DNA from: Acholeplasma laidlawii
Lineage (GTDB): Bacteria > Bacillota_I > Bacilli_A > Acholeplasmatales > Acholeplasmataceae
NCBI RefSeq assembly: GCF_015709225.1
Contig: NZ_JADNRS010000042.1
Span: 1 to 60,588, forward strand
Direction: 5' to 3'
DNA length: 60,588 bases
Position numbers and translations under genes: made by a program. Below are positions 7,014-44,907 of the stretch, one piece after another. How positions within the stretch are numbered: position 1 is the first letter of the stretch; each line of letters opens with the position of its first letter. The notes under the pieces were generated by a model. The model searched no databases, had not been told where the DNA came from, and saw only the letters and a program-made list of their open reading frames with translations.

Positions 7014-7877
7014 TTAAGCTTTATTTACTGAACCAAACATTGTTAATTTATCTTTAATAACTTGTTTCATAGCTACATAACCAGGATTTAATAATTTTCT
7101 TGGGTCAAATCCTTTAGATTCTAGGTCTTTACCTTCTTCAATGTATTTTCTAGTTGCAGCGGCAAATGCTAATTGTAACTCAGTGTTTACGTTAATTTTT
7201 GCAATACCTAATGAAATAGCTTTAGTAATTTGGTCTGCAGGAATACCTGTACCACCGTGTAATACTAAAGGTACACCATTTGTAACTTCACTTACAGTTT
7301 TTAATACACCAAAGTCTAAACCTTTCCAGTTTGCAGGGTATTTACCATGGATATTACCAATACCAGCAGCGAATAGATCTACACCAGTAGCTGCAATAAT
7401 ACGGCATTCTTCTGGATCAGCTAATTCACCAGTACCAACAACACCGTCTTCTTCTCCACCAATTGAACCCACTTCAGCTTCTACAGATACACCTACAGCG
7501 TGTGCAACTGCTACAACTTCTTGAGTTTTCTTTAAGTTTTCTTCAAATGGATAGTGTGAACCATCAAACATAACTGAAGTAAAACCAGCGCGGATTGCTT
7601 TAAAAGCACCTTCATAAGTACCATGGTCTAGATGGACTGCAACAGGAACACTAATGTTCATTGCTTTGTCTAATGTAGACACCATAGCCATTACGTTTTC
7701 ATAACCACCCATGTATTTAGCTGCACCTTCTGATACACCTAAAATTACTGGTGATTTTAATTCTTCAACAGTAGATAATACTGCTTTAATCCATTCAAGG
7801 TTGTTGATGTTGATTTGTGCAACAGCATAACCTTCAGCCTTAGCTTTTTGTAACATTTCTTTTGCGGAAACTAACAT
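7014..7877 (-). CDS. fba: Class II fructose-bisphosphate aldolase
   Basis: This 287-residue cytosolic zinc enzyme splits fructose-1,6-bisphosphate into dihydroxyacetone phosphate and glyceraldehyde-3-phosphate. The zinc and catalytic signature VAVHLDHGTYEGAFKAI lies around residue 80, followed by EAEVGSIGGEEDGV and the phosphate-binding LVLHGGTGIP and KINVNTELQ. Length matches the FbaA type of Bacillus. It has a clear promoter (TTGTAA, 17 bp, TATAAT) and ribosome binding site AAGGAGG. It lies downstream of pyrG as in Bacillus. Confidence 0.98.
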   Translation of the reverse strand: MLVSAKEMLQKAKAEGYAVAQININNLEWIKAVLSTVEELKSPVILGVSEGAAKYMGGYENVMAMVSTLDKAMNISVPVAVHLDHGTYEGAFKAIRAGFTSVMFDGSHYPFEENLKKTQEVVAVAHAVGVSVEAEVGSIGGEEDGVVGTGELADPEECRIIAATGVDLFAAGIGNIHGKYPANWKGLDFGVLKTVSEVTNGVPLVLHGGTGIPADQITKAISLGIAKINVNTELQLAFAAATRKYIEEGKDLESKGFDPRKLLNPGYVAMKQVIKDKLTMFGSVNKA

Positions 7878-7911
7878 TTTTTGAATCCTCCTTATCGTTT
7901 TGCCAATAGAT

Positions 7912-7940
7912 ATTATATATCTAATTGTATTTTTTTACAA
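7912..7940 (-). promoter_or_regulatory. fba promoter
   Basis: On the minus strand, -35 TTGTAA (7935-7940) and -10 TATAAT (7912-7917) are separated by exactly 17 bp, ending about 35 nt before the fba start. The -10 is perfect and the -35 matches four of six consensus bases. Confidence 0.75.
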
Positions 7941-7953
7941 ACATTTAGGGTGA

Positions 7954-9564
7954 TTATCGATTAATTTTGTTATTTTTAAGAGACATTTCTATAAAATCTC
8001 TAAATAACGGGTGAGGACGTAGTGGTCTTGATAAAAACTCTGGGTGATATTGTACACCAACAAACCAAACATGGTTTTTTAGCTCAACAATTTCTACTAA
8101 ATTTTGGTTAGGATGTATGCCACTAAAGATAAAGTTATTATCTTTAAATAACGACTCATATTGATTGTTAAATTCATAACGATGTCTATGACGTTCTTTA
8201 ATTAAATCTTGTCCATAAGACTTATATGCAACCGTGTTTTGTTCAATCTTACAATCATATAATCCTAATCTTAATGTCCCACCTAAATCAGTGCCTGGTG
8301 TTTCTAATGTATGGATAAGTGGCATCTTTGTATTCGAATCAATTTCTGTTGTTTCTGCATCTTTATAGCCTAATACATTTCTAGCATATTCAATGATTGC
8401 TAATTGCATACCATAACATATACCAAAGAAAGGTACGTTATGTTCTCTGGCATATTTGATAGCTAATAGCTTACCGTTAGTTGCCCTTTTACCAAATCCA
8501 CCCGGCACTAAAATACCGTTACAAGACTTCAAGGTTTCTTCATAGTTATCACTCGTTAATTTTTCAGCATTTAACCATTTAATTTTAACTTCACAGCGGT
8601 GATGGAAACCTGCATGTTTTAGTGATTCTGATACCGATAAATATGCATCTTGTAGCGTCACATACTTACCTACAAGTCCAATAGTAATACGATGTTGTGG
8701 GGTTTTAATACGTTCAATTAAATCTATCCAAGAAGACATATCCGGTATCACATGATTATCTATTTGGAAATGTTTTAAGATATAGTCATCTATTTTTTGT
8801 TTTCTAAAGTTTAGAATAGATTCATAAATAACATTCACATCTAAAGATTCAAATACTGCTTCTTTATCCACATCACAAAATAAAGCAATCTTTTCCTTCA
8901 CATCACTACTAATATTGACTTCACTTCTTAAAATAATAATATCTGGTTGAATACCGAGTGATCTTAACTCTTTTACGGAGTGTTGTGTTGGTTTAGTTTT
9001 AATTTCATTAGAAGCTTTTAAAAATGGAACTAATGTATTGTGTATGTAAAGCGTGTTTTTATACCCGAAATCACGTCTTGCCTGACGTATTGCTTCAAGA
9101 TATGGTAACGATTCAATATCACCCACTGTACCACCAATTTCAGTGATAATAACGTCTGCACCAGATATTTGAGCTGCTTCTTTTAGTTTTAATTTGATTT
9201 CATCTGTCACGTGAGGAATAACTTGTACCGTTGCACCTAAATACTCACCTCTACGTTCCTTATTAATAACATTTTGATATATTTTACCTGTAGTAATAGA
9301 AGATTCTTTTGTTAGATTAATGTCGATAAAACGTTCATAATGCCCTAAATCTAAATCTGTTTCAGCACCATCATCTGTAACAAAAACTTCTCCGTGCTGA
9401 AAAGGACTCATTGTGCCTGGATCCACGTTAATATAAGGATCGAACTTTTGGGTAAACACCTTTAACCCTCTAGATTTTAAAATCTGACCGATTGCAGATG
9501 CTGATATACCCTTACCTAAAGATGAAACAACTCCGCCTGTAACAAATATAAATTTTGTAGCCAT
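7954..9564 (-). CDS. pyrG: CTP synthase
   Basis: This 536-residue enzyme makes CTP from UTP, ATP and glutamine. The N-terminal synthetase domain starts with [19 protein letters not shown], with further signatures [15 protein letters not shown] and [17 protein letters not shown]. The C-terminal class I glutamine amidotransferase domain has its nucleophile in [10 protein letters not shown] and the His-Glu pair in QYHPEF. I place the start at 9564: it begins the conserved N-terminus and follows AAGGTAAGG. An in-frame ATG 33 codons upstream lies inside the promoter and leader terminator and cannot be the start. Leader structure indicates CTP-sensitive attenuation. Confidence 0.98.
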
Positions 9565-9590
9565 AATAGATTCCTTACCTTTCTTTAAAT

Positions 9591-9619
9591 AAATAAAAAG
9601 TCTCCTAAAAAGGAGACTT
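9591..9619 (-). terminator. pyrG leader attenuator terminator
   Basis: Minus-strand AAGTCTCC (9612-9619) pairs with GGAGACTT (9598-9605) across a six-base T-rich loop, followed by a T tract. The hairpin lies between the transcription start and the pyrG ribosome binding site, so it can only act as an attenuator. Its upstream arm is pyrimidine-rich and could pair with added G residues at the transcript 5' end. Confidence 0.85.
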
Positions 9620-9643
9620 CTTTGAATTGTCGAATTATGGTGT

Positions 9644-9682
9644 GCCCTTATTAATTGTATCAAAGACGCCTTAAAGTTTCAA
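9644..9682 (-). promoter_or_regulatory. pyrG promoter with GGGC transcript start
   Basis: The -35 TTGAAA (9677-9682) and -10 TACAAT (9654-9659) are 17 bp apart. Six bases after the -10 the sequence reads GGGC (9647-9644), the expected start site. In Bacillus subtilis pyrG the same GGGC start permits addition of extra G residues when CTP is low, and the poly-G prevents the leader terminator. Confidence 0.85.
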
Positions 9683-9722
9683 CACTTATATGAAAATATA
9701 ATTACCAAAATTTTTAATTGAC

Positions 9723-10224
9723 TTAAGGTTTCATTGCTCCAAATAAAACGAACCAAGGCACTTGATCGAGTGCTGGATTACCTGTCATATATACAATAAT
9801 CACTATCCATGGTGCAATCCCTGCAATAGAACCCCAAATAAATGGACCCCAGTTAATTTTACTTTTAGCTTCGTTAAGTTGTTCCATAACAAGGCCAAAA
9901 AGGTTCATCGCAGCGTTCACAATAAAGATTAATATTAATGACCCAATATCGGTAATACCAAACAAGGTAGATATTAAAACGATCATAATAGAACTGCTTA
10001 ATGCATATTCAAACCATCTAAATCTATTACTACCTTTTTCTAAATCTTTAGCATAGACATCAAATAAGTTATTTGGAATATCAGATTAATGCATGTGCCA
10101 GTGCCGAAATAATTAGAAAACTAGCAACTAATATACCAAATGGTAAGACAAATAGGTCTTTACTTGCTACAACTAGACCATTAATAGGTCCGTCATAAGT
10201 GATATAAAACTGTACAATTTGAGG
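9723..10224 (-). pseudogene. Heliorhodopsin remnant, frameshifted and truncated at both ends
   Basis: Two adjacent reading frames together give about 165 residues that resemble heliorhodopsin from the end of helix 1 to helix 5. The first frame (10224-10081) reads QFYITYDG, then ASKDLFVLPFG and SFLIISALAHALI, and stops at TGA. The second continues, after a one-base shift near 10081, with DIPNNLFDVYAKDLEKGSN, RFRWFEYALSSSIMIVLIS, GITDIGSLILIFIVNAAMNL and INWGPFIWGSIAGIAPWIVI. The Glu in RWFEY is the counterion position. Helices 6 and 7, including the retinal-binding lysine, are absent, as is the N-terminus. It therefore cannot make a photoreceptor. It lies between rpoE and pyrG, neighbours in other Firmicutes. 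Family recognised from memory. Confidence 0.8.
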
Positions 10225-10306
10225 TTACAGATTTAAAATACCATCCTTCAAAGTAATTCGTCTTTTGTAAGCCTTGATACTTATCGTCTCTAAACACATT
10301 TCTCAT
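10193..10306 (-). pseudogene. 5' remnant of a tocopherol cyclase-like gene, fused out of frame to the heliorhodopsin remnant
   Basis: A 37-codon frame starts at ATG 10304-10306 behind a plausible ribosome binding site (AAAGGG). It reads MRNVFRDDKYQGL, then QKTNYFEGWYFKSV, before degenerating and stopping. NYFEGWYFK is the characteristic N-terminal motif of bacterial tocopherol cyclase family proteins, normally about 300 residues or more. About 30 residues of that gene remain; the sequence then passes into heliorhodopsin-like sequence in another frame, so a deletion has probably joined the two genes. Expression of a short peptide is possible but probably meaningless. Confidence 0.65.
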
Positions 10307-10392
10307 GTAATTTACCCTTTGTATATAGTTTAATTTGTTGTATCATTATTTACTTTTTTTACATATAAATGCACTTACTGATGGCATAAATA

Positions 10393-10416
10393 AACAAAAA
10401 AGAGGTTGCCCTCTTA
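10393..10416 (-). terminator. Terminator of rpoE
   Basis: Minus-strand AAGAGG (10410-10415) and CCTCTT (10400-10405) form a six-base stem around the stable tetraloop GCAA, followed by TTTTTGTTT. The rpoE stop codon overlaps the stem. Confidence 0.8.
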
Positions 10417-10986
10417 TTTGTCATACATATCTTCATAGTCATCCATGATGTCGTTGTAGTCATCTTCATCGTAGTCATCATCTAAGTCTAAATCAACGTC
10501 ATCCAAGCCATCATCTTCGTCGGTTGAGACTAAATCTAGTCCAACATCAACATAAGCTTTTTCTTCTTTAATTTCTTCATCTAGTTCTTCATCGTCTTCC
10601 TCATCAAGTTCATCTTCGTTGTCTTCATCGACCAAGTCTACTTCTAAGTCTTCAATATCTGCTAAATTAAAATCTGAAAAGTCAATTTCATCATCAGAAA
10701 TGTCTTCAATTTCTTCTGGAGAAATGAATGCGTAACCATCTTTATCCCAATATTCTAAATGTCCATCTTTTAGTGTCCATTTATCATCCCCTACAAAAAC
10801 AAATTTACCTGATAAAGTAATATCCATGTATAGTTGTGTCATTGCATCTACATCTTCAATATCCATACCACTATGTTTAGCAGTAGCTTCAATTAGATCG
10901 TAAATTGACATAGGTTCTTTGTTTTCTTTAAGAATATATGTGATGGTCTCTAATAAAGATAATTCATTTAATTTTTTGTCAGCCAT
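10414..10986 (-). CDS. rpoE: RNA polymerase delta subunit
   Basis: This 190-residue protein is the delta subunit of Gram-positive RNA polymerase, which speeds recycling and sharpens promoter selectivity. The N-terminal HARE-HTH domain (LNELSLLETITYILKENKE to WTLKDGHLEYWDKDGY) occupies about residues 5-90. The remaining 100 residues are almost only Asp and Glu, the disordered acidic tail typical of delta. I choose the ATG at 10986 because it follows AGGAGG with good spacing and begins the conserved MADKKLNELS; an in-frame ATG 14 codons upstream lacks these. It lies near pyrG as in Bacillus. Confidence 0.95.
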   Translation of the reverse strand: MADKKLNELSLLETITYILKENKEPMSIYDLIEATAKHSGMDIEDVDAMTQLYMDITLSGKFVFVGDDKWTLKDGHLEYWDKDGYAFISPEEIEDISDDEIDFSDFNLADIEDLEVDLVDEDNEDELDEEDDEELDEEIKEEKAYVDVGLDLVSTDEDDGLDDVDLDLDDDYDEDDYNDIMDDYEDMYDK

Positions 10987-11066
10987 TTTGTGCCCTCCTA
11001 AAAACCGCTTATATTGTATATTAAACACTTCAATATTGCAACAACTTTTTGCAATTAAGATAAATT

Positions 11067-11654
11067 TTAATACTTTTGTCGGTTTTCTACAGCTTTAGTT
11101 AGTGTTAATTGGTCTGCGTATTTTAAATCAGCGCCTACCGGTAAGCCATATCCTAATCTAGATATTGTAAGATCTAGGTCTTTATATAATGATTTAATGT
11201 ATTGAGCGGTGAGTTCACCCTCAACGTTGGAGTTCGTCGCAATGATGATTTCTTTGATTTCTTTAACTCTTTTAGTTAACTTATCAAAGTTTAAATCTTT
11301 AGGTTCTATACCTTTTGAAAAATCGATGAGTCCATTTAATACATGGTAGTTACCATGGAATGTTTTAGTTTTTTCAATAGCAAAAACATCTTTAGAATCC
11401 GCTACCACCATAATTTGGGTTTTATCTTTTGTTTCATCTTTACAGATTGAACATATATGGTCATCTGTTAGAAGACCACATATATCACAAAAAGATATTT
11501 TGGTTTTTAATTCTATAAGATGTGTTCCAAAATGCTTTAAGTCTTCACTATCCCAATTGGTTAAGTGTAGCGCTAAGCGTTCTGCAGTTTTTTCGCCAAT
11601 GCCTGGTAACTTTTTTAAGTCATCAATAAGTTCTAGTATAATTGTTGGGTACAT
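11067..11654 (-). CDS. recR: Recombination mediator protein RecR
   Basis: This 195-residue DNA repair protein works with RecF and RecO to load RecA on gapped DNA. The helix-hairpin-helix motif is LKKLPGIGEKTAERLALHL, the four-cysteine zinc finger is CDICGLLTDDHICSIC, and the Toprim domain begins at TQIMVVADSKDVFAIE. The C-terminal Walker B-like part is present (TLTKAVENRQKY). The start codon overlaps the stop of ybaB (TAATG), giving the conserved dnaX-ybaB-recR operon. Confidence 0.98.
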   Translation of the reverse strand: MYPTIILELIDDLKKLPGIGEKTAERLALHLTNWDSEDLKHFGTHLIELKTKISFCDICGLLTDDHICSICKDETKDKTQIMVVADSKDVFAIEKTKTFHGNYHVLNGLIDFSKGIEPKDLNFDKLTKRVKEIKEIIIATNSNVEGELTAQYIKSLYKDLDLTISRLGYGLPVGADLKYADQLTLTKAVENRQKY

Positions 11655-11944
11655 TAAAATCCTAATCCACCCATGCCACCTGAGAATTGTCCCATGGTTT
11701 CTTCTTGAGTTTTATCAATTTGTGCAAGTGCATCATTTACAGCAAGTAAAATAGCATCTTGTAGTAACTCTACTTCTTCTAGTAAAGCTTCATCAATTTT
11801 TACATCGATAACTTGTCTAGTGCCTTGCATAATGACTGTAACACCACTTGCTTTACCTGTGAATTCAGATGATTCAATTTGTTCTTGAGCATCTTGAATT
11901 TGTTTTTGCATTTTCTTTAATTTATTTAACATATTCGGATTCAT
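11654..11944 (-). CDS. ybaB: YbaB/EbfC nucleoid-associated protein
   Basis: This small DNA-binding protein of 96 residues is found between dnaX and recR in most bacteria. The N-terminal coiled region is NMLNKLKKMQKQIQDAQEQI, followed by the beta-strand core with GKASGVTVIMQGTRQVIDVKID, and a glycine-rich tail (GGMGGLGF). It forms a dimer that binds and shapes DNA. It starts 2 nt after the dnaX stop and overlaps recR by one base. Confidence 0.95.
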   Translation of the reverse strand: MNPNMLNKLKKMQKQIQDAQEQIESSEFTGKASGVTVIMQGTRQVIDVKIDEALLEEVELLQDAILLAVNDALAQIDKTQEETMGQFSGGMGGLGF

Positions 11945-11946
11945 AT

Positions 11947-13641
11947 TTATTCCTCTACTTTCACTTTTTCTTTTCCAAAATATTCTACAGCAAACTCAAC
12001 GATTTCAGGTACTTTTTGTTCTGATTTAGTTTCATTTATTGGAGTTTCATATAAATGGAGATCTATTTCTTTAAGTTTAGGTTTTGAAGTACCTGCATTG
12101 TACTGTGCTGCATAATCAGCTTTTAAAATCATCCAGTCCGGTTTAAATAGTACTGTGTAATCTCTGACTAATTTTTGCTTTTGATTTAATATATCTAAAA
12201 CCTTTTGTTTAATTTCTGGCTTTAACATTGTCTTAGCCGTATATAAATCATCATATACTAGCAGCATGACATCCTCATTACCTACAGCTTCTAATGTGCC
12301 TTCACTTAAGAGTTCAGCAACAGGTTTAAGGCTTGGGTTATCATAATCTTTAAGTACTGGCCAACCTCTATTTAATAAACTACGCTTTTGTCTATCTGCA
12401 TGGTTTAATATATCTTCTATTTCTTTAACAGTAACTAGCGCTTTAAGATTGGTTGGTCTAGAAGCTGGTGTGTTTTGTACATGTATTTTGACTGCTTCTT
12501 GGCTAACTTGAGTCTTATTTACCATGTCTTTTAATTTTAAGATGTCACTTTCTAGATGTGTGATTTTTTCTTCTAGTGAAACCATTTCAATAGATTCATG
12601 GTTAATCATCTTAATTAAAGCAAGTTCTAAGTATGCACGTTTAGAGGTTGTGAACTTCAGTTCTTGTTGTAAGTCATTTAGAATATCTAAATATGCATAG
12701 ATTAAGTTTGGTTTGATATCTTTAAGATCCGGATATTTCTTATCTGGTCTTATTTTATCTAATAACACATCACGTAAAGCTAAGATAATATCAGATACCA
12801 TACGTGCAATGTCTTTACCATCTTTAATAATTTGATTTAATAGATCTAGTGCCTTTTGAGGTTGTTTTAGATATATAACTTTTAAGAGTTCATTAATATA
12901 TCTTCTAGATAAACCACCTGATACGGTATAGATATCTTCTTCAGTGATTTCATCATTTGTAAATGAGACCACTTGGTCAAGTAAACTTAATGCGTCTCGC
13001 ATACCACCTTCTGCAGTACGTGCAATTGCAGTTAAAGCTTCTGGTGTGATTTTTAAATTTTCTTTGCTAATAATTTGTTTTAAATTTTCCTCTATTTGAT
13101 CCATTTCAATGTTCTTGAAATCAAATCGTTGACAGCGACTTAAAATAGTTGCAGGTACTTTATGAGGTTCTGTTGTTGCTAAAATAAATACTACATACTT
13201 TGGTGGTTCTTCAAGTGTTTTTAAGAGTGCATTAAAGGCTGCTGTTGTAAGCATATGGACCTCATCGATAATATAGACTTTATATTTACCGATACTTGGT
13301 GTATATTTCACTTTATCTCTTAAATCTCTAATCTCATCTACACCATTATTCGATGCAGCGTCAATCTCAATAATATCTGGTACATCACCACGCTCAACAC
13401 CTAAACAAACGTCACATTTACCACAAGGCTCTTTTGCTGGTGCTTCTAAACAGTTTAGAGCTTTAGCAACGATTTTAGCAACCGAGGTTTTCCCGGTTCC
13501 ACGAGGACCAGAGAAAATGTAGGCATGTCCAAATTTTTCATTCAAGAGTGCATTTTGAAGGGTTTGAACAATTACTTTTTGTCCAAAAACATCTTTAAAA
13601 AACTTAGGTCTATAGGTACGATAAAGTGCTACATAACTCAT
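11947..13641 (-). CDS. dnaX: DNA polymerase III subunits gamma/tau
   Basis: This 564-residue clamp-loader ATPase has Walker A at GPRGTGKTSVAK (about residue 45), a four-cysteine zinc module in NCLEAPAKEPCGKCDVC, Walker B at YKVYIIDEVHML, and sensor motif TTEPHKVPATILSRCQRFDF, followed by the C-terminal tau region. It loads the DnaN clamp and couples polymerase to helicase. No slippery frameshift site is evident, so only the full-length form is predicted. It leads the dnaX-ybaB-recR operon with ribosome binding site AAGGGG. Confidence 0.97.
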   Translation of the reverse strand: MSYVALYRTYRPKFFKDVFGQKVIVQTLQNALLNEKFGHAYIFSGPRGTGKTSVAKIVAKALNCLEAPAKEPCGKCDVCLGVERGDVPDIIEIDAASNNGVDEIRDLRDKVKYTPSIGKYKVYIIDEVHMLTTAAFNALLKTLEEPPKYVVFILATTEPHKVPATILSRCQRFDFKNIEMDQIEENLKQIISKENLKITPEALTAIARTAEGGMRDALSLLDQVVSFTNDEITEEDIYTVSGGLSRRYINELLKVIYLKQPQKALDLLNQIIKDGKDIARMVSDIILALRDVLLDKIRPDKKYPDLKDIKPNLIYAYLDILNDLQQELKFTTSKRAYLELALIKMINHESIEMVSLEEKITHLESDILKLKDMVNKTQVSQEAVKIHVQNTPASRPTNLKALVTVKEIEDILNHADRQKRSLLNRGWPVLKDYDNPSLKPVAELLSEGTLEAVGNEDVMLLVYDDLYTAKTMLKPEIKQKVLDILNQKQKLVRDYTVLFKPDWMILKADYAAQYNAGTSKPKLKEIDLHLYETPINETKSEQKVPEIVEFAVEYFGKEKVKVEE

Positions 13642-28324: not shown

Positions 28325-29107
28325 TTAGATGACTAATAATAGATACGTGACTAGTGAAATAGTCAAAACCATAATGAAATTTACAGTACTGTTATTAACA
28401 AATTTTTTGCCCGATATAAGTATAAAATGCTCGGTATTTGATATCATTTCCGCTATTTTTCCACTTTTTATGTCTTTATATTTCGCTTGTAAAAATACAC
28501 CTAAGTAGCTATCTAAAATACTACCAAAAAATCCAGCTATTGTAATAACTACACTAAATTCTATAAGCACGTCAAGACTAAATCCTTCACTTAAAAAGTA
28601 GAGTGCTGAAAACGTCAAACTAATGATTGATGCGCCTAAAAATGAAGCTACTACACCAAGCATACTCACAGCTCCAGATAAACCTTTTTCCATAGCTTTA
28701 AATGTAACTATGGAGTAGGTTTTACCTTTACTTAAACTACCTATTTCAGAAGCCCAAGTGTCAGCTGTGGATGCTGCTATAGCAACCACAGCGACAATAA
28801 GATATGTTAAATCATGTAAAAAATAATATAGTGTTAAGAAAAATAAGGATACTACCGAGTTAGAAATCACTTGAATGTAGTCTCTTCCAAATTTCTCTTT
28901 TTCGTTTTTATTGAACTTAGAAATAATACTTGAACTAATAAAGAAGAAAATAAGTATACTCCAAGCAATATAGGATCCAAAAGCATAAAATAGCATACCA
29001 ATAATACTGGCAGTGACAAAACCACTGAGTGTCAGTGATCTTTTCTTATATGCAACAAATGCTACCGATAAACTTAATAATAGACCGATGATATATGGTG
29101 CAAACAT
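28325..29107 (-). CDS. DUF92 family membrane protein, VTE6-like (phytyl-phosphate kinase homologue)
   Basis: This 260-residue protein with about seven transmembrane segments has the DUF92 signatures AASTADTWASEIGSLSK (about residue 112) and LSGAVSMLGVVASFLGA, followed by GFFGSILDSYLGVFLQ. Plant VTE6 of this family phosphorylates phytyl phosphate to phytyl diphosphate, using CTP or similar. Here the gene ends a carotenoid operon, 27 nt after the phytoene synthase gene. A role in phosphorylating a polyprenyl phosphate is therefore plausible, but bacterial members are untested as far as I know. No terminator is obvious downstream. Confidence 0.8.
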   Translation of the reverse strand: MFAPYIIGLLLSLSVAFVAYKKRSLTLSGFVTASIIGMLFYAFGSYIAWSILIFFFISSSIISKFNKNEKEKFGRDYIQVISNSVVSLFFLTLYYFLHDLTYLIVAVVAIAASTADTWASEIGSLSKGKTYSIVTFKAMEKGLSGAVSMLGVVASFLGASIISLTFSALYFLSEGFSLDVLIEFSVVITIAGFFGSILDSYLGVFLQAKYKDIKSGKIAEMISNTEHFILISGKKFVNNSTVNFIMVLTISLVTYLLLVI

Positions 29108-29134
29108 ATGCTAGTTCATGCTCCTTAATGTATA

Positions 29135-29995
29135 TTACTTATAAATACTTGAAACAATTTCCCTTTTTCTTTCATCAGATACAACACTTCTAATGTTATA
29201 TACATCATAGTTATTCAATCTAATGGTATGAATAATTTCTTCATACATCTTGGATGCTAGTAAGAGCGGCTTTCTAGCATCTGGTTTAAATAGGTGTAGT
29301 TTTTCTAATGCAATTTCATATTTTTTATGCGCATAATTTGCAAGGTATTCAAACATTTCTATGAACCCGTGATTGACTACACCTAATTCTAAATCTTTTT
29401 GTGTGTAATTAAATTGATGCATGACATCTAAAGGGATATAGATGCGTTTTCTTTTACGATCCTCACCAATATCTCTTAAAATATTTGTAATTTGCATCGC
29501 TTCACCTAAGTTTCTTGCTACAAGCTTTAATTCGCCAATTACACTTTTTGGTGCTAGTACATAACTTAACATCTCGCCTACAACACCCGCTACATGATAA
29601 CAATACTTTAATAAATCATCAAGTGTTTTGGGTTGTGTAAACAAGAAGTCCTGTCGTTGCCCTTCAATTAAGTCAAAATATGGTTTAAAATCATACGCTT
29701 TAGGGTAATAATGCTTAATTACTTCATTTAAACTTCTAAAGATAAAATCCGTTGGTACGTCCCCTTTAATCATATCCATTAATTTTGATTCATAACTATT
29801 TAGTAAATCAATATCTTTATATTCATCAATGGCATCATCTACAACTCTACAATAAGCATATATTGCATAGATCGCTTGGCGATCTTGCTTGGCTTTTAGC
29901 ATACTAAAAGCCTTATAAAAGGTTTTAGAGTTTTCTTTTATAATTAATTCACACTTATTAAAATCACTTTTGAGTTGTTTAGATAATTTCATCAT
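29135..29995 (-). CDS. Phytoene/squalene synthase family (CrtB/CrtM type)
   Basis: This 286-residue enzyme joins two prenyl diphosphates head to head, the first committed carotenoid step. Both aspartate-rich motifs are present: YAYCRVVDDAIDEY (about residue 50) and NILRDIGEDRKRKRIYIP (about residue 165), together with YCYHVAGVVGEML. The sequence does not settle whether it uses C15 farnesyl diphosphate (CrtM, dehydrosqualene) or C20 geranylgeranyl diphosphate (CrtB, phytoene). Start overlaps the stop of the desaturase (TAATG), showing tight coupling. It likely acts at the membrane surface. Confidence 0.92.
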   Translation of the reverse strand: MMKLSKQLKSDFNKCELIIKENSKTFYKAFSMLKAKQDRQAIYAIYAYCRVVDDAIDEYKDIDLLNSYESKLMDMIKGDVPTDFIFRSLNEVIKHYYPKAYDFKPYFDLIEGQRQDFLFTQPKTLDDLLKYCYHVAGVVGEMLSYVLAPKSVIGELKLVARNLGEAMQITNILRDIGEDRKRKRIYIPLDVMHQFNYTQKDLELGVVNHGFIEMFEYLANYAHKKYEIALEKLHLFKPDARKPLLLASKMYEEIIHTIRLNNYDVYNIRSVVSDERKREIVSSIYK

Positions 29996-31482
29996 TATTT
30001 AAGATCCTTATGCAGTTCATTTACTGCTAATTTTGCACTATTTAAAACAATCGGAACACCTGCACCTGGGTGATTACTACTACCAGCTGAATATAAATTC
30101 TTTAAATATCTAAATTTATTTTGTGGTCTATAGTAGTTTGATTGAAGTAACGTTGGACGAAGACCGAAGGTTGCACCAAATTGTAGATTGAATTTAGATT
30201 CAAAATCATTTGGACTATATACGTTAAGATAATCTATATTATCTTTGATGTCTTTAAATACTTCATGCTCAGACATCATATTTAATATTTTATTCTTATA
30301 TGTTTCTACTGCTTTATCATCCCATTTTTCAGGGCTATCTGATTTATTAGGTACCGGAACTAGAACATACATTGATTCTTTACCTTCTGGTGCCATGGAA
30401 CTATCTATACGACTTGGTGTGTATACATAGTATGATGGATCTTTAGGTGTATTACCTACAAATATGTCATTAATGTTACCATTGAAGTCATTGGTAAAGA
30501 AGAATGTATGAGTTTTTAAGTCATAACGTTTTTTAGTACCGATGTATAGTATAAATGATGAGGAAGAATATAGCATTTTATTGACTTTCTTTTCAGTATA
30601 TTTTCCTTTATTTTTCTTTTCTTTGATTAAGTTGTTCATAACCCATGGAAAATCCGCATTGGTTAAAACAGCATCATAGTTCTGGGTCACTTTACCATCA
30701 ACTTTTAATGCTTTGATTTCTTTTTTCTCAATAAGTAATTCTTCTACATTTTGGTTAAGTAAGATTTTACCACCCATCTCTAAAAATCTTTTCTCCATAG
30801 CTTTGGCCATACTATACATACCACCTTTAATATAGTGAACACCATATAGTAATTCAATCATTGGAATAATTGTGTATATTGATGGTCCATTATATGGTGA
30901 TATACCAATATATAGTGTCTGGAATGCTAAAGATTGTCTTAATTTTTCATTTTTAACAAACTTAGCAATTGATTTATAAGCAGAATTAAATGTTTTTAAT
31001 TTCATACCTTGATATAGCATTTTAGGATTATAAAAATCTGTTGGTTTTCTAAAACTACGATCAATAAAGTGATTTTTAGCAACTAAATAACGTTTATAGA
31101 CATCTGCTAAATATGCTAGATAACCTTGAGCATCTTCTTCGCTAATCTTTTCGTTTTCAATCGTCATTTCAACTAAATCGTTAGTAGCGATTAAGTTGGT
31201 CTTGTCACGATATTTGATTTCAAACATTGGATCAACGCGTACCATGTCAATATAATCTTTATAGTCTACACCACTAACTTTAAATACTTCTTTATATATA
31301 TCTGGCATCATAACAATCGTTGGTCCTACATCAAATGTAAACCCATCTTCCTTAATTTGATACATTCTGCCACCTACTTTTTCATTCTTTTCATAGATGG
31401 TCACATCATATCCAAGTGCCTTAAGACGAATAGCTGAGGCTAAACCTGCTGTTCCTGCACCAATAATCGCTATTTTTTTCAA
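29995..31482 (-). CDS. Phytoene/dehydrosqualene desaturase (CrtI/CrtN type)
   Basis: This 495-residue FAD enzyme introduces conjugated double bonds into the carotenoid backbone. The N-terminal dinucleotide motif reads KKIAIIGAGTAGLASAIRL, followed by YEKNEKVGGRMYQI, and the C-terminal FAD signature is YSAGSSNHPGAGVPIVL. I choose the TTG start at 31482 because it directly precedes KKIAIIGAG and follows an AGAGGA ribosome binding site; an upstream ATG would add 18 residues that overlap the previous gene. Product chain length (C30 or C40) cannot be read from sequence. Confidence 0.93.
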   Translation of the reverse strand: MKKIAIIGAGTAGLASAIRLKALGYDVTIYEKNEKVGGRMYQIKEDGFTFDVGPTIVMMPDIYKEVFKVSGVDYKDYIDMVRVDPMFEIKYRDKTNLIATNDLVEMTIENEKISEEDAQGYLAYLADVYKRYLVAKNHFIDRSFRKPTDFYNPKMLYQGMKLKTFNSAYKSIAKFVKNEKLRQSLAFQTLYIGISPYNGPSIYTIIPMIELLYGVHYIKGGMYSMAKAMEKRFLEMGGKILLNQNVEELLIEKKEIKALKVDGKVTQNYDAVLTNADFPWVMNNLIKEKKNKGKYTEKKVNKMLYSSSSFILYIGTKKRYDLKTHTFFFTNDFNGNINDIFVGNTPKDPSYYVYTPSRIDSSMAPEGKESMYVLVPVPNKSDSPEKWDDKAVETYKNKILNMMSEHEVFKDIKDNIDYLNVYSPNDFESKFNLQFGATFGLRPTLLQSNYYRPQNKFRYLKNLYSAGSSNHPGAGVPIVLNSAKLAVNELHKDLK

Positions 31483-31498
31483 TTTAAAATCCTCTTTC

Positions 31499-32164
31499 TT
31501 AAATAAGTAATAGTAAATAATACATAAATGAGGCACCTAATGGTACGGATAGGTTATCCAGTCCTTTAGGTGTTAAATATTCTGTTAAAGTTGCAAATAC
31601 TGCAACTGCTAATGCAATCCAAAGACGCATTAAACTGTTTGAATAGATAATAATTAGACTTCCAGCAATTAAAGATACGATAAACATTGTAACTACACCT
31701 ACAACCGTTTTACCGTGTCCAATATCTTTTGTGCCATATTTTTTACCAAATACAGCGGCTAATCCATCACCATAACCCATAATCATAACACCCAATAAAC
31801 CAATATAAGCATTATTTAAGACATAAAATGAGAAGAATATGAGTATTGTAAGGGAGATTGGGTAATATACTGTACCCAAATTTCCCTTACCATTACGCTC
31901 CATTGACTTAATTAGATTTGTCTTATAAGAAATATAGTTTAATACAATAAATGATACCGGTGGAATTAAGGTAATAAGTATATCGCTTGGATCTTGCATA
32001 AAGATCAGTGCAATAAAATACCAATTCGATACACCTATATGAATAAATTTTCTACTACCTTCTTCACCAATAATACCTTTTTTACTTAAGATGGTTGATA
32101 AACCTATCATTAAACCTATAAACCCATATGATGATAATAAGTAATAAAGAATATGCATAGACAC
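31499..32164 (-). CDS. Phytol/dolichol kinase-like membrane protein (VTE5/SEC59 family)
   Basis: This 221-residue membrane protein has about six helices. It carries the family signatures EEGSRKFIHIGVSNWY near the start, GKGNLGTVYYPISL, MGYGDGLAAVFGKKYGTKDIGHGK (nucleotide-binding Gly-Asp-Gly) and TEYLTPKGLDNLSVPLG at the end. Known relatives use CTP to phosphorylate phytol, farnesol, geranylgeraniol or dolichol. It is 16 nt upstream of the carotenoid desaturase. With the DUF92 protein it could supply prenyl diphosphate from free prenyl alcohols; this is inference. Confidence 0.83.
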   Translation of the reverse strand: MSMHILYYLLSSYGFIGLMIGLSTILSKKGIIGEEGSRKFIHIGVSNWYFIALIFMQDPSDILITLIPPVSFIVLNYISYKTNLIKSMERNGKGNLGTVYYPISLTILIFFSFYVLNNAYIGLLGVMIMGYGDGLAAVFGKKYGTKDIGHGKTVVGVVTMFIVSLIAGSLIIIYSNSLMRLWIALAVAVFATLTEYLTPKGLDNLSVPLGASFMYYLLLLI

Positions 32165-37363: not shown

Positions 37364-39135
37364 TATAAATCCTTTCTAATAAATCCAATTGCTATAGAGT
37401 TTAACCCTGAGTTCATAGCAATAATAGATGATATTTCCCCTACATATACCGGTGCTTTACCGATCTTTTTAATAATTTGTGTCTTTATCTTTTCTGCTAG
37501 TTTTAAATTAGATACATGAACAATTGCGTAATTTTCAATACCTGATGTCTTGTGTATGCGATCTACCATGTTAACAAGTTTATTAATATTACGTTTTTGA
37601 CCAATCGTTTTTGATAATACAACACCTTCACCCGCATCATTAATAGATACAATAGGTTTTAGTTTTAATAACTTACCTAAAGTCCCCAGGCTCTTTTTGA
37701 TTCTACCACTTCGTACCATGTTATCTAAGGTATCTACGTGAACCAATATTTTAGTATTTTTAACTAATTTATTTACTTTTAATTTGATGTCTTCAAAAGG
37801 CATTTTTTGTTCAATCATTTTAGCAACTTCATAAACAATCAAACCTTCTGAGACGCTATTTTGTTTGGTATCGATGAGTAATACATCTTTATCTTTATAA
37901 CCTTCAAGAGCTTTGGTAAATAAGTTATGTATACCACTCATTTTTGAAGATACGGTTAAGATGATTAATTTTTTATAGTGTTTTAATAAAAAATTAATCT
38001 GCGCATCGATTGCTTTAAAACTCGGTGTAAATGATGTAGGAAACTTTTCATGCTTACTGATGTAGTGGAAGAGTTGGTGGTTATTAATTGTTAATTTATC
38101 GTAATAGACTATATCATTAAAGTTGATACCAATTGGATAGACATGTATAGGGTGACTATCAACAAATATTTTAGGTAGATCAGCAATTGAATCAGTTAGT
38201 ATACAAATCTCATTATCCTTTGCCTGCGTAGCTTGGTATTGTTTTCTCATATCATCTACTTTTGATTCTAAGATTTGTCCAAGATGACTTAATTTTTCTA
38301 CGATGATCTCAGGGTGATTGGTGTGTAAGTGTACACGTTTAAGTCGCTTAGTTTCTCCAATTACTAATGAATCCCCTAATTGATCAAGTAGTTCTTTTAA
38401 TGTGTGCTTATCCGTTGTTGTTTGAAGTAGTACCTCTGTACAATAACGATAAGTAATATCCATATGATCATGTTCAATGGTTTCAGGTTCTTCAAAACTT
38501 ATTGATGGTTCTATAACATCCTGTGTAACTCTATTAGTAATGCTTTGTAGAAAGCCTTCTACAAAGAGAGTAAACCCAAGTGCCCCTGCATCTACTACAC
38601 CAAATGTTTTTAGAACTTCAAGTTCTAACTTTGTTTGTTCAAGTGCCATGTTAAGTTCTTGGATGATATAGTCTACATATGCTTCTATATTATCAATTGG
38701 TTGTTTAGTGTTTTTTAGTGTTTCACTTAGCTTACGCATCAACGTTACCATAGTGCCCTCAACTGGTTCATTTATGGCCTTGTATGCATGTATCACACCG
38801 GATTCAATTCTTCTAATAAATTCAGGATAATCTATAGTTTGATGAGCCTTTGTAAGACCATATAGAAATTGAGAAAAGATTAAACCTGAGTTTCCACGTG
38901 ACCCGATTAGTGCAGCATCTGCTAAGGATTCCAGTGTTTCATCAATGGTGTTACCCAATTTAGTCTGTTCAATGATTGATTTCATTAAAGCACTTAAATT
39001 ATTTCCTGTATCTTGATCTTGGACGGGAAATACATTTAATTGATTTAATGTATCCTTTTTTTCTATTACTCTTTTAGCACCCTGAATTAAAGCATCATAC
39101 ATACTTTTATTTTCAATCATTTGAAATTCATTCAT
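37363..39135 (-). CDS. FakA-FakB fusion: DAK2 fatty acid kinase domain plus DegV fatty acid binding domain
   Basis: This 590-residue protein combines two normally separate partners. Residues 1-200 form the DAK2 kinase domain, with metal-binding NVFPVQDQDTGNNL and GSRGNSGLIFSQFL. Residues 220-310 match the FakA middle domain (ITYRYCTEVLLQT). Residues 315-590 form a DegV/FakB domain (ICILTDSIADLP, FPTSFTPS, ILTVSSKMSGIHN, NMVRSGRIKKSLG). FakB presents exogenous fatty acids to FakA for phosphorylation to acyl phosphate, which feeds phospholipid synthesis. Fusion would let one protein do both. It overlaps DUF2177 by 4 bp and DUF1295 by 1 bp. Confidence 0.85.
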   Translation of the reverse strand: MNEFQMIENKSMYDALIQGAKRVIEKKDTLNQLNVFPVQDQDTGNNLSALMKSIIEQTKLGNTIDETLESLADAALIGSRGNSGLIFSQFLYGLTKAHQTIDYPEFIRRIESGVIHAYKAINEPVEGTMVTLMRKLSETLKNTKQPIDNIEAYVDYIIQELNMALEQTKLELEVLKTFGVVDAGALGFTLFVEGFLQSITNRVTQDVIEPSISFEEPETIEHDHMDITYRYCTEVLLQTTTDKHTLKELLDQLGDSLVIGETKRLKRVHLHTNHPEIIVEKLSHLGQILESKVDDMRKQYQATQAKDNEICILTDSIADLPKIFVDSHPIHVYPIGINFNDIVYYDKLTINNHQLFHYISKHEKFPTSFTPSFKAIDAQINFLLKHYKKLIILTVSSKMSGIHNLFTKALEGYKDKDVLLIDTKQNSVSEGLIVYEVAKMIEQKMPFEDIKLKVNKLVKNTKILVHVDTLDNMVRSGRIKKSLGTLGKLLKLKPIVSINDAGEGVVLSKTIGQKRNINKLVNMVDRIHKTSGIENYAIVHVSNLKLAEKIKTQIIKKIGKAPVYVGEISSIIAMNSGLNSIAIGFIRKDL

Positions 39136-39539
39136 TTTTCGAAGAACCTCCTATATACAACATAGGTTATTATACTTGTTACTAAAGTTAGGGATGTCCC
39201 CCAAATTAAGTCAATGACAACAATAAGTAGTGGGAAGTCTTTCATAGTGGCATAGTTAGTTAAATCGTATGCTCCGTATGTAGCAAACCCATAAATGAGT
39301 GCGTAAATTATAGTTTTTTTAATTGATTTTTCTTTAATTCCAGGTTTTAATACGAGTACGAGTAGCCCTATAACAAATGCTATATAGAATATAACTGCAG
39401 GAACTAGTTTAAACTCATTACTAATTAAATGACCTAACTCTTCTTTGTATAGGTCTTTTGAAAGTACACCTAACCAGAGTAAATCAATTAATAAAAAGAC
39501 GATAGTTGCAATAATAAATAAAATAACATTCTTTTTCAT
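39132..39539 (-). CDS. DUF2177 family membrane protein
   Basis: This 135-residue protein has four helices and matches the DUF2177 family: LIDLLWLGVLSKDLYKEELG in the first helix, FYIAFVIGLLVLVLKPGI, GFATYGAYDLTNYATMKDFP and LIWGTSLTL. In many proteobacteria this family lies near DUF1295, cyclopropane fatty acid synthase and photolyase genes that respond to light or singlet oxygen (from memory). Its activity is unknown. It is first in the DUF2177-FakAB-DUF1295 operon, with ribosome binding site AAAGGAGT. Confidence 0.87.
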   Translation of the reverse strand: MKKNVILFIIATIVFLLIDLLWLGVLSKDLYKEELGHLISNEFKLVPAVIFYIAFVIGLLVLVLKPGIKEKSIKKTIIYALIYGFATYGAYDLTNYATMKDFPLLIVVIDLIWGTSLTLVTSIITYVVYRRFFEK

Positions 39540-39634: not shown

Positions 39635-39667
39635 GTAAAAAAAGACCACTTCATGAAGTGATCTTTA
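39635..39667 (-). terminator. Terminator of the asnS-photolyase transcript
   Basis: Minus-strand AAGATCACTTC pairs with GAAGTGGTCTT (one G-U pair) and is followed by seven T. The photolyase stop lies at its upstream edge. Confidence 0.8.
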
Positions 39668-41041
39668 TAGTTTATTAACATATTCTAGGTAAGATTTCAT
39701 ATCGAATTTTCGAATTAAACCCTGTTCATTCATGTATCTTAATTTACCAAATATAGCACGTTCTTGCCAAGCTCTATCATGTTTACCAAAATTCCATGCA
39801 ATATTACCATAAGAGTTTGGATTTCTTCCATCGATAAAATATTTATTATTTAAGTGGACAATGATTTGGTAGGCATCTTTCATAGATCCTGACCATTCCA
39901 TAATTTTTTTTGCCCAATACATTCTTAAGTAGTTAGCCATAAAGCCTGTAATACGTGCTTCTTTCATAGCTGCATTAAAATAAATATCATGAGTTTTACT
40001 AAATTCTATCTCATCTAAACTATAGATATGATTTCTTATGTCTTTATCATGCTCATGCATCGTTTCATATGCCCAAGCTTCTGTCATATATTCAAATCTA
40101 TCATAATCTTTAATATAAGTAACAAAGTTATATGCAAGAGATCTTCTAACCACTAATTGTTCGATAAAGCCTTCTGACATTTCAGGGTAGAGTTTATAGT
40201 ATGGATGATCGTAAAGCATACGTAATATTTCTTGATCAGATACTTGTCCGAATTGTAGATACATCGACATATAAGGTTGTATATGTAGTGCAGGATCAGA
40301 TCTTTTATCATAATCTTTAAGCAGTTGGTTAAAGAAGTATTCTAAATGTTTATAGGCTTCTTTTCTACCACCTTTAAATTTATGATAGGGTTTAACACTT
40401 ATATCAATTGGTAGTTTATTCACTATATCCGCTATATTTGAAAGATTTAGTGGTTCGTGAATTTGGATTTTTGATAAATTATCTAATCTAGATAATTCTT
40501 TATAATCCATATATTGATGTAATTTTTCCATCACTTTGGATCTAATTACATAGGCACCATAAGCAGCTTTTGGATATAATGCTTCAACTGGGATAATAAG
40601 ATCAGACTCTACTTGAATAATGTCTATGACATATGTATCCTTTATGATTTTATAGACTTCATTTCTCATATGTCTTTGGGGTTTTAAATATCCTCTATCC
40701 ATAATGATGGTATCCACATCTTCTAAATAAGGTTTGATATTATCTGTTAGTTTCCCAATACTAAGCTCAAAGTGAATGTTTTCTTTACAACAATCTTCCT
40801 GAATTTCTTTTAGTCCTTCTAGCATAAATGTATAGTGTCTAAGGTTTGCTTCTGGGTAGTTTGGTAGTATATTAAACCATACAATTAATGGTAGTCTCTT
40901 CTTATTAGCAAGTTCTATGGCATAATTTAAGGCATGGTTATACTGGATGCGCATCGATTGCTGCATCCAGTATAAAATGAACTTACCCTTATTTTTTGTG
41001 TTATGTTCTAAAATCTGTTTAACTCTATCATTGTGTATCAT
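39665..41041 (-). CDS. Class II CPD photolyase
   Basis: This 458-residue FAD enzyme uses blue light to split cyclobutane pyrimidine dimers. The N-terminal Rossmann-like domain begins FILYWMQQSMRIQYNHALNY, the class II pattern. The FAD-binding C-terminal region holds RSLAYNFVTYI, LRMYWAKKIMEWS, and the very typical DGRNPNSYGNIAWNFGKHD followed by WQERAIFGKLRYM. Class II enzymes are less common in bacteria than class I. The gene starts 8 nt after asnS, with no good ribosome binding site, so expression may depend on coupling. Confidence 0.93.
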   Translation of the reverse strand: MIHNDRVKQILEHNTKNKGKFILYWMQQSMRIQYNHALNYAIELANKKRLPLIVWFNILPNYPEANLRHYTFMLEGLKEIQEDCCKENIHFELSIGKLTDNIKPYLEDVDTIIMDRGYLKPQRHMRNEVYKIIKDTYVIDIIQVESDLIIPVEALYPKAAYGAYVIRSKVMEKLHQYMDYKELSRLDNLSKIQIHEPLNLSNIADIVNKLPIDISVKPYHKFKGGRKEAYKHLEYFFNQLLKDYDKRSDPALHIQPYMSMYLQFGQVSDQEILRMLYDHPYYKLYPEMSEGFIEQLVVRRSLAYNFVTYIKDYDRFEYMTEAWAYETMHEHDKDIRNHIYSLDEIEFSKTHDIYFNAAMKEARITGFMANYLRMYWAKKIMEWSGSMKDAYQIIVHLNNKYFIDGRNPNSYGNIAWNFGKHDRAWQERAIFGKLRYMNEQGLIRKFDMKSYLEYVNKL

Positions 41042-44811: not shown

Positions 44812-44817
44812 AAGTAA

Positions 44818-44823
44818 ATTATA
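44818..44823 (-). promoter_or_regulatory. -10 box placed 6 nt before the papain-fold gene
   Basis: TATAAT on the minus strand ends six bases before the start codon, so transcription would begin at or near the ATG. The alternative is that the box is fortuitous in AT-rich DNA. Confidence 0.4.
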
Positions 44824-44861
44824 ACATTAAATCATTATTTTAATATGCTTTGATTTAGGTG

Positions 44862-44895
44862 AAAAAAAATATCTCAAATAATGGGAGATATTTTA
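44862..44895 (-). terminator. Terminator of the rpmH-rnpA-yidC-jag cluster
   Basis: Minus-strand AAAATATCTC (44885-44894) pairs with GAGATATTTT (44866-44875) and is followed by TTTT. It lies 13 nt after the jag stop. Confidence 0.8.
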
Positions 44896-44907
44896 TAATT
44901 TAAGTAT

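Follow-up and report, generated by a model that had tools for sequence, protein, structure and literature searches.

The locus between rpoE and pyrG in the window (the whole 60,588-nucleotide stretch of Acholeplasma laidlawii DNA analysed here) is with high probability a heliorhodopsin (HeR) gene that died recently, which taken as a whole is the best explanation of what lies there. The window copy is an authentic pseudogene of a known family and is not new in kind. The broken heliorhodopsin gene that a preliminary description had placed between rpoE and pyrG is borne out by the matches of both minus-strand frames to the PF18761 Heliorhodopsin profile (E 6.6e-6 over profile positions 29-74 for the first frame and E 3.2e-45 over positions 78-186 for the second; Table 1) and by an intact gene at the same site in G002, the closest genome searched (CTP synthase 94% identical; chromosome of 1,496,992 bp). 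A chance match is excluded, because the relic aligns at the DNA level with the intact G002 heliorhodopsin. That description had also proposed a profile search of both frames, a comparison of related rpoE-pyrG junctions and a whole-genome search for a second copy; the first two, when run, gave the matches and the intact gene just described, and the third, a profile search, returned no second heliorhodopsin copy above the family cut-off in the window genome (1.33 Mb in 55 contigs, 99.67% complete). One extra match in that genome, of 19.7 bits, was rejected as a second copy, being sub-threshold and lying in an unrelated 377-residue membrane protein. RNA elements were also searched for around the relic, and none were found there.

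Table 1. Coordinates of the heliorhodopsin relic, its lesions, its flanking genes and presumed partner genes in the window
Feature	Position	Strand	Remarks
pyrG (CTP synthase), downstream flank	7954..9564	-	orthologue in 36/37 genomes; G002 94% identical
HeR relic frame 2	9723..10082	-	residues ~98-208 (helices 3-5), then VLFGAMKP and stop; 96% identical to G002 over 112 aa
Second deletion junction	9751..9757	-	CTTGGTT direct repeat; 159 bp, in frame, lysine lost
TGA from one-base shift	10081..10083	-	relative to G002
HeR relic frame 1	10084..10224	-	residues ~51-97, helix 2 region; 96% identical to G002 over 47 aa
Cyclase-like gene stump	10208..10306	-	first ~30-33 codons, motif YFEGWYFK; 85% identical to G002 over 33 aa, E 1.8e-13
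First deletion junction	10217..10222	-	TCAAAT, at both ends of G002's 1,134 bp
rpoE (RNA polymerase delta subunit), upstream flank	10414..10986	-	HARE-HTH E 1.4e-5, just under cut-off
Carotenoid/prenyl cluster (DUF92, CrtB, CrtI, polyprenol-kinase-like)	28328..32131	-	tblastn with G028 proteins, 49-56% identity
Class II CPD photolyase, intact	39665..41041	-	61% identical to G004 photolyase, no stops

In G002, rpoE is followed by a tocopherol-cyclase-like gene of 324 codons and by a heliorhodopsin gene of 269 codons directly upstream of pyrG, both of them whole. The window copy occupies the same site, has the same upstream neighbour and is identical to the G002 protein at 150 of 155 comparable residues, but where the G002 protein is full length and carries the SxxxK motif, the window copy is frameshifted and is without residues ~1-50 and ~209-261. 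The first of its three lesions is a deletion after which codon ~30 of the cyclase-like gene abuts heliorhodopsin codon ~51; it took the heliorhodopsin start codon and helix 1 with it, and the cyclase-like frame ends within a few codons past the join. The relic had been described as running from the end of helix 1 to helix 5; the helix 1 part does not hold, as the relic starts at residue ~51 of 269, and the rest does. To that account can be added that 10306-10208 is a piece of the other gene, fused by the deletion to the relic. The second lesion is a one-base frameshift leading to an in-frame TGA, and the single-base shift between the two frames, as first noted, is seen in comparison with G002. 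Reading this TGA as a sense codon under an alternative genetic code does not rescue the frame, because a TAA comes three codons later. The third lesion, the in-frame deletion of residues ~209-261, removed helix 6, most of helix 7, Ser251 and Lys255. Helices 6-7 and the retinal lysine had been reported as lost, and they are, but through an internal deletion and not by simple 3' truncation, since the native C-terminus VLFGAM(K/Q)P-stop survives beyond it. Short direct repeats mark both deletions, which would have arisen there by slippage or illegitimate recombination, late on the window branch.

The relic does retain the RWFEY and IAGIAPWIVI motifs that had been read in it, the former in helix 3 with the counterion Glu122. 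Set against a functional heliorhodopsin, which has seven helices, an open frame with a start codon and an SxxxK motif containing the helix-7 retinal-binding lysine, the relic has lost helices 1 and 6 and most of helix 7, its native start is deleted and its frame is interrupted by the TGA, and both residues of the motif (Ser251 and Lys255) are gone. A working photoreceptor would not be possible from such a gene, because the start and helix 1 have been lost, the frame is broken and the retinal lysine is absent. In the 14 intact relatives, by comparison, SxxxK and Glu122 are invariant.

The gene appears to have died recently, because its divergence from G002 is almost purely synonymous: the 155 codons that can be compared show 36.5 synonymous against 7.5 non-synonymous differences, giving a dN/dS of 0.043, and pairs of intact heliorhodopsins give 0.032-0.051. 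Neutrality along the whole branch would predict ~85-90 further amino-acid changes, and under different baseline assumptions the gene has been dead for no more than ~6-16% of the branch, a rough figure that takes branch lengths as equal. Synonymous divergence from G002 is mosaic along window positions 7014-13641, being ~0.1 for fba, recR and a ybaB-like gene, 0.26-0.30 for rpoE, dnaX and mnmE, and 0.49 for pyrG and heliorhodopsin; recombination between lineages is suspected, and codon bias may account for part of the pattern.

The near absence of excess amino-acid changes would also be expected if the gene were intact in the organism and broken only by sequencing or assembly error, and the assembly is indeed a draft, and a one-base shift taken by itself is typical of such errors. 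This is nevertheless improbable, as there are three separate lesions, two of which are clean deletions at direct repeats that remove most of a neighbouring gene, and elsewhere the contig keeps synteny with G002 and carries open genes. The point that weighs against recent death is that a very low dN/dS would also fit a sequence under selection, for example if the remnant still yielded a useful shortened membrane protein, since an internal ATG at 9986 still opens a frame of 87 residues that covers helices 3-5 and is conserved in sequence. We consider this less probable still, given that the chromophore site is absent, the original start region is lost, every intact relative is full length, and the conservation is accounted for by recent death. 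That the match belongs to some other multi-helix family has negligible probability: the other Pfam matches are weak, the best (0.044) falling below cut-off, whereas the second relic frame exceeds the cut-off of the NCBIfam equivalog NF038020 HeR (E 1.9e-41, 142 bits against 100), and the solved heliorhodopsins 6is6, 7clj, 6su3/48C12 and 6uh3 align with nearly the whole intact orthologue (residues ~13-269, including the Glu122 and Lys255 positions), differing from the relic in having the lysine segment that it lacks.

As regards the history of the recently dead gene, rpoE and pyrG are separated by 843 bp in the window and by 2,155 bp in G002, whereas six further species of the genus have 124-212 bp there and no trace of either gene. 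Because those six species lack any trace, the pair is read as an insertion shared by sister species, and by parsimony the cyclase-like and heliorhodopsin genes most likely entered the site in the common ancestor of the window species and G002. The earlier statement that the relic sits in conserved rpoE-pyrG synteny is therefore right as to the adjacency of the flanking genes, orthologues of the window rpoE (which has an acidic tail) adjoining pyrG in the genus, but the ancestral arrangement did not include heliorhodopsin. A tree groups the relic firmly with G002 (support 98/98); several of its rows are long and its deeper branches lack resolution, so that for the genus it is compatible with vertical descent as well as with transfer.

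Heliorhodopsin is a fairly common gene in the Acholeplasmataceae that has recently been lost several times, the window being one such case. Broken copies stand in at least three other relatives, one in the genus (G004), one in the family (G033) and one in the order (G050); like the window copy these have decayed, but their lesions differ, and the broken copies look independent of each other. The G004 relic retains both ends of the gene with the middle deleted and lies beside a jag-like gene (L052 8291-8658), the cyclase-like gene of that genome being intact on another contig; at the homologous spot in the window (44812-44907) only 96 bp separate the two flanking genes. The G033 gene has one frameshift, which may be an assembly error, and the G050 gene is missing its N-terminus and has three stops. 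In G033 (L064 6926-13820), potassium-transport-like and response-regulator-like genes, so named by reading their sequences, stand between heliorhodopsin and the cyclase-like gene.

The stump upstream of the relic is too short by itself for a family call and was assigned through its identity with the intact G002 gene, which belongs by profile to PF14249 (E 3.4e-22), the tocopherol cyclase family, of putative AttH/CrtC-type lipocalin fold; of its own copy of the gene the window keeps only ~33 codons. A PDB sequence search with the cyclase-like protein gave no match. The protein of a relative is predicted to be all-beta and of the AttH/CrtC/hydratase type (pLDDT 76.6, with four sequences in the alignment), and the predicted fold matches 2ich (AttH), kievitone hydratase and pericyclases with E values down to 2.6e-10. 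The name tocopherol cyclase reflects family homology, and an AttH/CrtC-like predicted fold does not settle the reaction; the protein may take part in chromophore handling.

The 88 family genomes include 35 with heliorhodopsin, 38 with class II CPD photolyase and 35 with the cyclase-like gene; none of the three occurs in genus g8, whose 29 genomes are 0.3-0.9 Mb in size. Leaving out genus g8, heliorhodopsin and photolyase occur together in 32 genomes, heliorhodopsin only in 3, photolyase only in 6 and neither in 18 (Fisher 1.7e-7), and the corresponding counts for heliorhodopsin and the cyclase-like gene are 32, 3, 3 and 21 (Fisher 6.2e-10), where the counts include relics and the Fisher values ignore shared ancestry. 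Heliorhodopsin and the cyclase-like gene lie less than 300 bp apart in 24 of the 30 compared genomes that have both, and the PF14249 gene at L051 8628-9602 is an example of this family-wide pairing. In the literature searched we found no description of this pairing and no paper treating heliorhodopsin together with tocopherol or with Acholeplasma. Several of the family clusters hold photolyase, CrtB and CrtI as well. In G005 (L189 11225-12445), the cyclase-like gene is closely followed by an ORF whose start resembles that of a lipoprotein and which contains a long stretch of DDDDDAVVE repeats.

The window retains an intact photolyase, the presumed former partner of heliorhodopsin, whose G004 homologue matches TIGR00591 phr2 with an E value of 2.4e-128 while falling below that model's strict cut-off. 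The two genes are not adjacent in the genus and are ~30 kb apart in G002. The carotenoid/prenyl cluster is also retained, with CrtB/CrtI at 29153-31482; its families are taken from the profiles of the G028 proteins, the polyprenol-kinase-like one having no profile match. Both at L062 5165-9080 and in the window cluster (28328-32131), CrtB and CrtI are accompanied by the DUF92 and polyprenol-kinase-like genes. Plant homologues of these two genes, VTE6 and VTE5, phosphorylate phytol for tocopherol synthesis, and it is curious to see VTE6/VTE5-type homologues beside a VTE1-like (cyclase-like) gene. A small membrane gene, DUF2177-like as read from its sequence, lies at window positions 39132-39539.

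Heliorhodopsin near photolyase and carotenoid genes has already been described (PMC8612252; PMC11109279), and the heliorhodopsin of Trichococcus binds class 2 photolyase, raises repair approximately threefold and is active under green light (PMC9769723). The Trichococcus proteins are 74-77% identical to the G002 protein (~74% for that of T. flocculiformis), and Trichococcus has a class II photolyase in the same genome, as do many of the relatives alongside heliorhodopsin. Photolyase binding is a feature of the Trichococcus protein, whereas the Acholeplasma proteins are known here from sequence and the window copy cannot work. Because of the described gene context, the boost to photolyase in Trichococcus and this level of identity, the ancestral heliorhodopsin was, by analogy, most likely a retinal-based helper of photorepair or photoprotection. 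It would have been a retinal-binding photoreceptor aiding the class II photolyase and photoprotection, as in Trichococcus, and once it was gone the photolyase and the carotenoid genes would carry on alone. The earlier suggestion of a light-responsive ancestor is plausible, given that the counterion Glu and the SxxxK lysine are retained in intact copies. Against it count the separate positions of heliorhodopsin and photolyase in this genus and the result that the retinal-forming enzymes BCD/Blh and RPE65 were not found above cut-off in any of the 88 family genomes, so that retinal would need uptake or another route of synthesis. Since none of these known enzymes was found, a chromophore role for the cyclase-like protein can be entertained: we put forward, as a tentative and rather unlikely proposal, that heliorhodopsin and the AttH/CrtC-fold protein form a two-gene light-response unit in the Acholeplasmataceae, in which the latter would make, modify or carry the chromophore (retinal or carotenoid). 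If this were true, the two genes would usually arrive and disappear as a pair, as when one deletion in the window ended both.

What the locus offers is the death of a rhodopsin-family gene in wall-less bacteria visible at base-pair resolution, with a working sister copy for comparison. Worth following are the repeated loss of heliorhodopsin, how firmly it is paired with the cyclase-like gene, and the fact that its presumed partners are retained. The gene is found in 35 of the 88 family genomes and in none of the 29 of genus g8, and several copies are broken; this pattern makes the family a natural test of the purpose of heliorhodopsin, in which one can observe that photolyase and the carotenoid genes stay while the cyclase-like gene goes along with it.
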